Shown here piece after piece: positions 10,214 through 12,880 of a stretch of DNA of 47,764 nucleotides (within the stretch, counting starts at the first letter, position 1; each line of letters starts with the position of its first letter). Source of the stretch: Planctomycetota bacterium (lineage in GTDB: Bacteria; Planctomycetota; Phycisphaerae; SM23-33). A model generated the notes under the pieces. That model was not told the DNA's origin. It ran no database searches and saw nothing but the letters and a program-made list of their open reading frames with translations. Both the position numbers and the translations under genes were made by a program. Location: contig JAJRYB010000088.1 in assembly GCA_024275995.1 (NCBI GenBank), positions 1-47,764 of the forward strand, given 5' to 3'.

Positions 10214-10314
10214 GTGGAGATTATTACCTGTGGCGCAGGCCGATGAAAGAGCGGCCATGGAAATCGGGTCCCCGTCTTGACTCGCTACCGCCTGGCGTGC
10301 ACGATGGGTGCGCC

Positions 10315-11478
10315 ATGAAAATATGCCACGTCATAACGCGGATGATACTCGGCGGGGCGCAGGAGAACACGCTGCTTACCTGCGAAGGCCTGCGCGATCG
10401 CGGGCACGAGGTAACGCTCATCACCGGTCCGGCGCTCGGACCGGAGGGTGAATTAATGAGCCGTGCCGCCGCCGGCGGGTACCGCCTGATCGTGCTGGAT
10501 TCGCTGCGACGGGAAATAAATCCGCTTCGTGATCGCACGGCGTATTTCGAGATCGGCAAGCTTCTGCTGGAGATGCGCCCGGACATCGTCCATTCGCATT
10601 CGTCCAAGGCGGGCATACTCGCTCGAAAAGCGGCTGCGAAAATCGGCGGCATGAAGATCGTCCATACCGTTCACGGGCTACCCTTCCATCCGTACGAAAG
10701 CTGGTGGCGAAACCGCCTTTACGTGTCCCTGGAAAAACGGGCTGCGAAGCGGTCGGACGCTATCATCTCCGTCGCCGACGCCATGACGTGCCAGGCGATG
10801 GCCCAGGGAATCGGCAAACCTGAACAGTACACGACGATTTACAGCGGTATGGAGGTCTCGACCTTTCTGGACCGTCCCGCGGAGGCAGAGAAATTTCGCG
10901 CGTCGCTCGATCTCCCGGCCGATGCCGTGCTCGTTACGCAGGTGGCGCGTCTCGCGGAACTCAAGGGGCACGAGTACGTCCTCGAGGCTGCCGAGCGCAT
11001 CGAGAACAAGCGAGTGTACTTCTGCTTCGTCGGCGAGGGGGTGCTGCGGGAGACGATCGAGGCGGAAATCGCCCGGCGAGGTTTATCAGACCGCTTCCGC
11101 CTGGTCGGGCTTTTACCGCCGGAGAAAATCCCAGCCGTCATGCACGCGACGGACGTGCTGGTGCACTGCTCGCTGCGGGAGGGTCTGGCGCGAACGCTTC
11201 CGCAGGCGATGCTCGCGTCCAGGCCGGTGATCAGCTACGACGTGGACGGCGCGCGGGAAGTAGTTGACGACGAAACGGGCGTGCTGCTCGAACCGCGGGA
11301 AGTAAACGGGTTGGTCCGGGCGATCGAAACGCTGGCCGGTTCCGCGGAACTTCGCGAAAAAATGGGCCGGGCTGGACGTGAACGCTGCCGGGAAATGTTC
11401 GACCACAACCGCATGGTGGATCGAATCGAGTGTCTTTATCGCAAGGTGTGTAAAAATCGTCGTTCCGACGATTGCTAA
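10315..11478 (+). CDS. Glycosyltransferase family 4 (GT-B fold)
   Basis: The 387-residue protein transfers a sugar from a nucleotide donor, probably to an envelope or exopolysaccharide acceptor at the cytoplasmic membrane face. The N-terminal GT-B domain shows HVITRMILGGAQENTL, SSKAGILARKAA and VHTVHGLPFHP. The C-terminal domain shows VARLAELKGHEYVLEAA and the donor-site segment VHCSLREGLARTLPQAM. I prefer the ATG at 10315, because MKICHVITRM is the typical first strand; an upstream in-frame ATG would add 24 atypical residues. The last codons (NRRSDDC and the TAA) are part of a REP-like hairpin that matches another copy 700 bp away, so the native C-terminus was probably altered by insertion of the transposase unit. 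Confidence 0.9.
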   Translation: MKICHVITRMILGGAQENTLLTCEGLRDRGHEVTLITGPALGPEGELMSRAAAGGYRLIVLDSLRREINPLRDRTAYFEIGKLLLEMRPDIVHSHSSKAGILARKAAAKIGGMKIVHTVHGLPFHPYESWWRNRLYVSLEKRAAKRSDAIISVADAMTCQAMAQGIGKPEQYTTIYSGMEVSTFLDRPAEAEKFRASLDLPADAVLVTQVARLAELKGHEYVLEAAERIENKRVYFCFVGEGVLRETIEAEIARRGLSDRFRLVGLLPPEKIPAVMHATDVLVHCSLREGLARTLPQAMLASRPVISYDVDGAREVVDDETGVLLEPREVNGLVRAIETLAGSAELREKMGRAGRERCREMFDHNRMVDRIECLYRKVCKNRRSDDC

Positions 11479-11481
11479 ACG
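11455..11481 (-). repeat. REP-like hairpin, left copy
   Basis: On the plus strand AATCGTCG-TTC-CGACGATT forms a perfect 8-bp hairpin followed by GCTAAACG. Read on the minus strand it is CGTTTAGC followed by a hairpin with loop GAA. All 27 bases are identical to 12156-12182. It includes the stop codon of the glycosyltransferase (TAA at 11476-11478). Confidence 0.85.
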
Positions 11482-11494
11482 GATGGAACGCCAT

Positions 11495-12040
11495 TCATTC
11501 GTCCAACGGCGTCACGAAATCCCAATGTTGTGTCCCCAAACCCGCAACGATCGGATTCCGCACGATATAATTCGCGGCGGCACGGAGGATATGTTCGTCG
11601 TTTATGAAAACTTTCCAGCAGCCGCGGGTCCACGGCGTTTGTCGACGTTGCAATGCGTGCGTGGCCGCCCCCTTAAACTGGCCCACAAGGTATTCGATCC
11701 GATGAGTGGATCGCATCACAAGCAGATGTACGTGATCGTTCATGATCGCACACGCCCGCACGGTCAGGTCAAGTCGCTCGACCACATCGCCGAAACCCTG
11801 CGCAACCAGTACGCGCGTCGAGTCGTTTATGAAATAGGGAGCGCGGGACAACTTCGGCGCCGACGTGGTCCAGAACCGCTGCAAGACCCGCCTCGATGGT
11901 TGCGGATTCTGCCTGAGATATTTAATCTCGCCAATCGCCTTGAGTTCGGCGTTATAGATTTCTTTGGAAAACGACCCCCTCGGATCGTTGGGCAACCAGG
12001 TTCCATAGGTGGTGAAAATTGCATGATATGCAATAATCAT
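11495..12040 (-). CDS. REP-associated tyrosine (Y1, HUH) transposase
   Basis: This 181-residue single-strand DNA transposase is of the IS200-like/RAYT type. The HUH metal-binding motif is H103-V-H105 in IMNDHVHLLVMR. The probable nucleophilic tyrosine is Y158 in AANYIVRNP. The N-terminus (YHAIFTTYGTWLPNDPRGS) is typical of transposases associated with REP sequences. Such enzymes nick and join single strands at REP hairpins and are usually domesticated rather than freely mobile. A good GGGAGG site precedes the ATG at 12040. All catalytic residues are present and the frame is open, so it may be active. REP-like hairpins flank it on both sides. Confidence 0.92.
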   Translation of the reverse strand: MIIAYHAIFTTYGTWLPNDPRGSFSKEIYNAELKAIGEIKYLRQNPQPSRRVLQRFWTTSAPKLSRAPYFINDSTRVLVAQGFGDVVERLDLTVRACAIMNDHVHLLVMRSTHRIEYLVGQFKGAATHALQRRQTPWTRGCWKVFINDEHILRAAANYIVRNPIVAGLGTQHWDFVTPLDE

Positions 12041-12049
12041 ACATCCTCC

Positions 12050-12076
12050 CGCTTAGCAGTGGACCGAAGGTCCACT
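12050..12076 (+). repeat. REP-like hairpin with different stem, next to the transposase start
   Basis: CGCTTAGC at 12050-12057 precedes AGTGGACC-GAA-GGTCCACT at 12058-12076, a perfect 8-bp stem with 3-base loop GAA. The leader and loop match the flanking REP copies (CGTTTAGC, loop GAA on the minus strand), while all eight stem pairs are independent. The orientation is opposite to the flanking copies. It lies 10 bases upstream of the transposase ATG. Confidence 0.8.
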
Positions 12077-12111
12077 TTGAGTTGGTGTTTTCACGGATCG
12101 CAGGTGTCCGT

Positions 12112-12182
12112 TTTTAATCGTCGTTCCTATATTTTAATCGTCGTTCCGACGTTTTAATCGTCGTTCCGACGATTGCTAAACG
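12112..12182 (-). repeat. REP-like hairpin, right copy, with two extra 20-bp partial units
   Basis: Three 20-bp units beginning TTTTAATCGTCGTTCC follow one another at 12112, 12132 and 12152. The last runs into the complete 27-bp hairpin and tail at 12156-12182. The first unit ends TATA instead of GACG, so only the last forms the full hairpin with tail. The tandem partial copies resemble slipped or repeatedly extended REP ends. Confidence 0.75.
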
Positions 12183-12190
12183 TTGTTCAC

Positions 12191-12880
12191 TTATCGGGCG
12201 CAGTTTTTCGATAATTCATCAAGCGATTCGAGCGTTACCTCTGCAAGGCTCGCCACGATCTTGTGTGCAGATGATAGCGCCTCGGCGGGATAGCTGTTCG
12301 TGACGGCGAGGACCTTCAACCCGGCGGCTCGTGCGGCGTCGATACCGGCAGGCGAATCTTCCACGGCGACGCTGCGCTGCTCGTGGATTTCCCTTCCGGT
12401 ACATTCCCGCAGGCGCTCCAGCGCGAGGTTGTAACCTTCCGGATCGGGCTTGCCGCATGAGACGTCGCCCGCGTCCACGATCAGCCTGAACGCCCCTGCC
12501 GCCCCTATCGACTCGATCGCCAGCTCGATTTCCTCACGCAGAGCGCCGGAGCAGACCGCCAACGGAATGCCGGCCTCGGCAGCGGTGGAAATCAGCTCCA
12601 CCGCGCCCGGCAGGGCTTCGATGGAATCGCGGAACATCCGTTGCACCAGCCCCGTCTTGGCGTCGATCAGTCCGCTTATACAATTTTCGTCCAGTTGAAC
12701 GCCCCCATCGCGCGCGGCGGCGACGATGCAATCGTGATCGTCGTAGCCCAGGTACTCGCGGTAATAGGCCTCCCTGGTAAGCTCCACGCCAACGGTCTTC
12801 ATTACCTGCTGAAAGCAGAGAAGGTGGATCGGTTCACTGTCTGCCACGACGCCGTCGAAATCGAAAATTATCGCATCCAA
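12191..12880 (-). CDS. HAD-superfamily phosphatase (beta-phosphoglucomutase-like)
   Basis: The 229-residue cytoplasmic protein carries all HAD motifs. Motif I is FDFDGVVADSEP with the nucleophile D7 and the general acid D9. Motif II is VCSGAL, motif III is the Lys in CGKPDPEGY, and motif IV is VEDSPAGIDAA. The alpha-helical cap between motifs I and II is of the subfamily IA type (HLLCFQQVMKTVGVEL). This group includes beta-phosphoglucomutase, phosphoglycolate phosphatase and sugar-phosphate phosphatases; the substrate cannot be told. It starts 12 bases after the stop of the histidine kinase gene, so the two form an operon. Its 3' end abuts the right REP-like repeat. Confidence 0.88.
   Translation of the reverse strand: MDAIIFDFDGVVADSEPIHLLCFQQVMKTVGVELTREAYYREYLGYDDHDCIVAAARDGGVQLDENCISGLIDAKTGLVQRMFRDSIEALPGAVELISTAAEAGIPLAVCSGALREEIELAIESIGAAGAFRLIVDAGDVSCGKPDPEGYNLALERLRECTGREIHEQRSVAVEDSPAGIDAARAAGLKVLAVTNSYPAEALSSAHKIVASLAEVTLESLDELSKNCAR

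Follow-up and report, generated by a model that had tools for sequence, protein, structure and literature searches.

Most REPs fall in two super-families, GTAG and CGTC, according to one survey (PMC3733652). Another study describes the RAYT subclasses as GT[AG]G readers, subclass 2.6 and class 3 having atypical hairpins, and the residues Q95, E100, H101 and R104 are those reported to touch GTAG in the E. coli enzyme (PMC6006769). In the guide model, A3 and G4 of the GTAG tag select CT (PMC8266576). This model would hold for TTAG too, which keeps the T, the A and the G, and the hairpins analysed here are therefore assigned to the REP/RAYT kind, as a variant. That kind is itself known; what is distinct from the described REPs is the leader, GTTTAGC and not GTAG, together with the swapped GTAG-contact residues of the enzyme. 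No paper on TTTAG-tagged REPs was found in the literature covered; a TTTAG example may already be listed in the supplementary tables of PMC3733652 and PMC6006769.

Several described systems resemble the present one in part. The E. coli protein TnpA-REP/RayT (b0228; 4er8) shares with the protein studied here the HUH motif and the one tyrosine, with W94, Y115 and N119 aligned, and is its best fold match; both systems also have oppositely oriented REP pairs around the gene and dispersed copies. However, the E. coli leader is GTAG whereas TTTAG is found here, the GTAG-contact residues (PMC6006769) are replaced, the present family has an additional N-terminal YGxWLPNDPRGS region, and its REPs are short perfect stems in which the E. 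coli bulge is absent. The group 3 RAYT of Stenotrophomonas and its REP-Sm (PMC8266576) have the same perfect 8-bp stem and 3-nt loop starting with G, with the leader at the foot directly or one base off, but their tag is GTAG, their loop is GCT (GNA here) and their proteobacterial protein has no such N-terminal region. A planctomycete distribution, a length of about 180 aa, the W[TA] motif, an extended conserved N-terminus and atypical flanking hairpins are features in common with class 3 TnpA-Y1 (PMC6006769); that class is set apart by its Y----Q motif and CnGA foot, whereas the present family has Y---NP, the class 2 signature, and TTTAG. The CGTC-tagged REPs are likewise short tagged hairpins, mostly in inverted pairs, though with another tag and without an associated transposase gene (PMC3733652). 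REPINs (PMC3116915) are gene-free units of two inverted REPs and a short spacer, as seen here in the related genome G325, but they differ in tag and host lineage, and the outside copies in the genome studied here are mostly single.

The cassette and its hairpins

The window, that is, the whole 47.8 kb stretch of planctomycete DNA that was analysed, holds a REPtron at positions 11455–12182, composed of a one-gene Y1/HUH transposase (RAYT), three framing hairpins and a set of partial units. The order along the cassette, which as a whole has no assigned strand, is REP 1, RAYT gene, REP 2, partial units, REP 3. REP 1 (11455–11479, minus strand; TTTAGC-AATCGTCG-GAA-CGACGATT) lies 3' of the RAYT gene (11495–12040, minus strand), REP 2 (12052–12076, plus strand; CTTAGC-AGTGGACC-GAA-GGTCCACT) is oppositely oriented and closely precedes the RAYT start, and REP 3 (12156–12180, minus strand; TTTAGC-AATCGTCG-GAA-CGACGATT) is identical to REP 1. 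An earlier note on this DNA had proposed three hairpins with TTAGC, an 8-bp stem and a GAA loop around the transposase, and all three are present at these positions with 8/8 stem positions paired. The opposite orientation that it likened to BIMEs is also borne out: REP 2 is opposite to REP 1 and REP 3, REP 3 and REP 2 form a BIME-like inverted pair, and in relatives oppositely oriented paired REPs flank the gene on both sides. Both ends of the cassette carry an identical 27 bp (AATCGTCGTTCCGACGATTGCTAAACG).

The DNA-folding z-scores of the three hairpins are -2.6, -2.5 and -3.9. Besides these three, the 47.8 kb window holds no other hairpin with TTAGC, a perfect 8-bp stem and a 3-nt loop, and by our own estimate about 0.001 would be expected by chance. 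The AATCGTCG and AGTGGACC stems are the same at positions 1, 3, 5 and 7 and differ at positions 2, 4, 6 and 8, and all four differing positions are compensated in the opposite arm. The earlier description of the stems as entirely different was too strong, since 4/8 positions agree and the changes at the other four are compensated.

On the left, the cassette is convergent with a glycosyltransferase (GT) ORF (10243–11478, plus strand), and on the right stands a HAD-family phosphatase ORF (12191–12880, minus strand). REP 1 encodes, on the plus strand at 11455–11478, the final residues and the stop of the GT ORF (ending in NRRSDDC and the stop codon), and the GT ORF in relatives stops near residue 403, about where REP 1 begins. 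The TTTAG leader contains TAG in one strand and, read from the opposite one, TAA.

Positions 12112–12171 on the minus strand are taken up by a tandem array of three 20-nt partial units (CGTCGGAACGACGATTAAAA; 3.0 copies by TRF). Each corresponds to the 3' part of the AATCGTCG REP (CGTCG-GAA-CGACGATT-AAAA) and contains the loop, the 3' arm and only the tip of the 5' arm, the leader being absent; the unit nearest REP 3 overlaps it. A mirror-image array is found upstream of the RAYT in the related locus L121, with 3.5 copies of 18-nt units of leader and 5' arm, and arrays of full units are found in L115, L130, L180 and L182. The three units had earlier been taken to suggest repeated extension. They are a genuine tandem array, which either palindrome slippage or RAYT-driven rearrangement may have produced.

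The RAYT protein

The RAYT gene encodes a 181-aa Y1_Tnp protein with the HUH residues H103 and H105, together with W137, the catalytic Y158 and N162. It matches PF01797 (Y1_Tnp) with 29.8 bits over a cut-off of 23. Its best NCBIfam model is NF047646 (REP_Tyr_transpos), which matches 17/17 members scanned, although for the window protein the match lies below the cut-off (55.6 bits vs 80). Across 93 rows from clades A–C of the family, no variation occurs at H103, Y158 or N162, and H105 and W137 are each absent from one row; the Y---NP motif is present, as YIVRNP in the window protein, with P163 in 89/93 rows. The relatives have in common an N-terminal YGFWLPNDPRGSWS-like region, that of the YGxWLPNDPRGS family. 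The AF2 model has a pLDDT of 87.4, and its best fold match is 4er8, the E. coli TnpA-REP (E 8.6e-6, TM 0.53/0.58). When the PDB was searched by sequence, the single protein returned weak IS200 matches only and the family alignment returned 4er8.

At the positions of the E. coli residues Q95, E100, H101 and R104, which contact GTAG, the 93 rows mostly have T/A/G, K, V and D/N. The pair K143/V144 was considered as a TTTAG-specific code and rejected: clade C mostly has the same residues yet a different leader, so K and V alone do not set the TTTAG preference.

Copies and covariation across genomes

A covariance model found at least 14 REP copies in the window genome, a 2.64 Mb draft assembly, at E < 0.004, at least 11 of them outside the cassette, before a drop to noise (E > 1); nine of the 14 copies were used in training and match by construction, while the remainder are independent. 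Copies with other stems include TTTAGC-CGTGGGTG-GAA-CACCCACG, the AGTGGGTG and TGTGGGTG forms, CGTCGCCG-GCA-CGGCGACA and TGTCGTCC-GCA-GGACGACA. With up to 3 mismatches, no strict AATCGTCG REP beyond the cassette was found among the genome matches listed, the two window copies being the only ones. The dispersed copies are mostly single and diverging, and in a crude ORF test 4/11 had no ORF of at least 120 aa covering or touching them, the others overlapping short or unverified ORFs. Rfam gave no match.

The linear pattern YTTAGC-N8-GAA has at least 23 matches in the genome, 11 of which make a stem with at least 7/8 pairs (G-T allowed). By itself this pattern is not enriched, with at least 8 and at least 15 matches vs at least 46 and at least 44 for the reversed pattern, and only the hairpin-forming subset is meaningful. 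The search of the genome for further TTAGC hairpins, set as a check beforehand, thus succeeded in this draft assembly with at least 11 copies beyond the cassette. The same genome contains two shorter IS200-like Y1 genes, L003 (contig C9) and L004 (contig C42; there is one in-frame TAG in this match). On their flanks they have TTAG hairpins whose four-base loops are GTAA, GTTA and GCAA, including a 68-bp tandem of three, and these genes may account for some of the CGTGGG-type copies dispersed in the genome.

The comparison was extended to 97 loci, 80 from a GTDB scan and 17 from the window genome and a phylum search. The 80 are nearly all labelled Planctomycetota or a subgroup, and one is titled uncultured bacterium; one close RAYT relative (63%), L120, stands on a record titled Candidatus Nealsonbacteria, possibly through mis-binning of the contig or transfer. 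A TTTAG-led hairpin of at least 7 bp lies no further than 250 bp from the gene in 39/97 loci, and occurs in 0/97 control stretches 550–800 bp away; 5-mers ending in GTAG precede near-gene hairpins in 0–2 loci, vs 39 for TTTAG. A looser, energy-based scan gave TTAG at 54 loci and 172 sites, vs 16–35 loci and 20–42 sites for eight other tetramers. Enrichment of the leader-hairpin pattern over background appears around the RAYT loci and not in the linear pattern. The further genomic copies and the enrichment near related RAYT genes support the REP/RAYT/BIME reading made from the window.

In 30 leader-aligned hairpins (29 distinct), two-sided changes occur at all 8 pairs. Paired cells amount to 88.4% vs 54.4% in shuffled sets, two-sided changes to 76 vs 26.3, and the covariation score is 0.817, vs 0.224 when shuffled and 0.085–0.153 with slid partners; the sequences are related, some are from the same locus and all were chosen as hairpins, so that the shuffles do not give probabilities, and the weight of the covariation rests on different stems all staying paired. 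In clade A, the hairpins were selected for TTAG and for 6 or more paired positions, which leaves the flanking G, T and C together with the loop as the informative parts: the leader is G-T-T-T-A-G-C, with the G in 51/55, the first T in 51/55 and the last C in 54/55, and the loop is GNA in 47/55. The pairing of a conserved leader with compensating stems, taken earlier as the mark of a recognised structure, is thus upheld by covariation far above the controls, with the qualification that stems are not free within this clade, where a NGTCGCCG-like sequence is retained.

A tree made by a short search, with SH-aLRT support only, contains three groups. Clade A (23 rows including the window, support 99) has nearly all TTTAG leaders, clade B (36 rows, support 99) has mostly TTTAG, and clade C (34 rows, support 92) has almost none; near the gene, clade C loci such as L131, L134, L185 and L035 have C[GT]AA[GA]-CCGCAAGCGG palindromes instead, and CCGCAAGC is found at 25/34 clade C loci near the gene and at 2 far from it. 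Leader type clusters on the tree, with 0/500 shuffles as low. Since the branch leading to the E. coli protein is very long, this tree does not fix the place of the family among RAYTs. A leader switch suspected in L109, L111, L113 and L122 was discarded, as these loci do carry TTTAG or TTAG leaders, next to hairpins that are longer or imperfect.

Among 60 relatives, REPs were detected in 17/21 genomes with a RAYT vs 8/39 without (RAYT E <= 1e-15, REP E <= 0.01; p = 8e-6, or 3e-5 minus the two genomes that supplied model sequences), the genomes being related, so that this is an association and not a set of independent trials. The highest count named is at least 102 REPs, in the relative G077. 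G301 and G321, with at least 14 and at least 10 TTTAG REPs, have no RAYT at E <= 1e-15, as orphans after gene loss or because of draft gaps.

Probable mobility and its alternatives

In three relatives (L202, L205 and L207) the GT and HAD genes directly adjoin and are convergent, with no cassette between them, which makes an insertion in the lineage of the window the simplest explanation of the cassette. Within the genus g218, an intergenic site of G325 holds two inverted REPs separated by a short spacer, and the orthologous site has 24 bp (G321), 114 bp (G327) and 66 bp (G301) between conserved flanks and no TTTAG REP in any of these three. G325 and its congeners thus differ by a REP gain or loss, to which the comparison assigns neither a direction nor an agent. 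At the L189-orthologous site, G327 and G301 have a different palindromic repeat starting GTAGGCTGGG (L243 and L244), so that this genus may also harbour repeats of the GTAG type, sharing a site with TTTAG REPs. In G325, another RAYT (33% identical; L208, 847–1407) lies immediately upstream of the same GT gene.

The region is very probably a REPtron in the functional meaning of the word, with a single-copy RAYT and its cognate REP hairpins as non-autonomous mobile elements. This reading is directly supported by the leader, the compensating stems, the genomic copies, the co-occurrence, the occupied and empty sites, the catalytic residues and the fold, and most likely it is the enzyme gene that spreads the hairpin repeats; binding of single-stranded DNA, cleavage and mobilisation are functions that we infer for this protein. 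The RAYT would bind the single-stranded REP by reading both the hairpin, with its 8-bp stem and GNA triloop, and the leader (G)TTTAG, which is unpaired and 5' of it. It would cut close by, using Y158 and a metal bound at H103/H105, and would then rejoin the ends. REPs, often as inverted pairs, could thereby be copied or moved into intergenic DNA, and by analogy with the proposal for GTAG, the TTTAG leader would guide the choice of the cleavage site. Counting against the REPtron reading are the NF047646 score below its cut-off, the failure to find a conserved cleavage dinucleotide beside the REPs, the REPs without a detected RAYT in several relatives, and the dispersed copies that the two shorter Y1 genes may account for.

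The same absence of a RAYT beside the REPs of G301 and G321 would suit a decaying, immobile remnant, maintained here by vertical descent only, as would a left side with just one REP and the few, mostly single and diverging copies in the window genome. Such a remnant appears unlikely, given that the ORF is unbroken and lacks none of the catalytic residues, that 27 bp are the same in the REPs at both ends and that occupied and empty sites within one genus imply change in relatives. The insertion of the whole cassette between the GT and HAD genes, together with the inclusion of IS200 transposases in PF01797, could also point to an ordinary IS200/IS605 insertion sequence, with the hairpins as its ends and the gene moving as a whole. 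This is very improbable: the gene is single-copy, the other Y1 relatives in the genome being at most 34% identical and near-identical mobile copies being absent, gene-free hairpins exist alone and in pairs, and the protein has the Y---NP motif and matches the RAYT profile, not that of IS200. The hairpins might, finally, be transcription terminators or mRNA ends between convergent genes, independent of the transposase, as REP 1 lies between the convergent GT and RAYT genes and one terminator-like match (12139–12151) overlaps the partial units. We give this reading hardly any credence, since what is conserved is the 5' leader and no 3' T-run, terminator-like sites are about as many as in shuffles (3 vs a mean of 2.0), and the hairpins go with the RAYT gene, none being found 550–800 bp away; a secondary role as terminators is possible.

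Beyond the REPtron reading of this region, it seems somewhat probable that TTTAG REPs represent a further large class beside GTAG and CGTC, centred on Planctomycetota and served by the YGxWLPNDPRGS RAYT lineage, with a rebuilt guide-reading pocket and a clade-specific leader, TTTAG for clades A and B and C[GT]AA[GA] followed by CCGCAAGCGG for clade C. If so, this lineage would be a natural series of leader and enzyme co-evolution. Knowledge of RAYT specificity has so far come from a few proteobacterial enzymes, all of them users of GTAG. A planctomycete family with another tag, swapped contacts and covarying stems would make REP recognition and the choice of the cleavage site comparable across RAYTs, and it supplies a search model for REPs that would be missed by scans based on GT[AG]G, such as the RNAMotif search used in PMC6006769.
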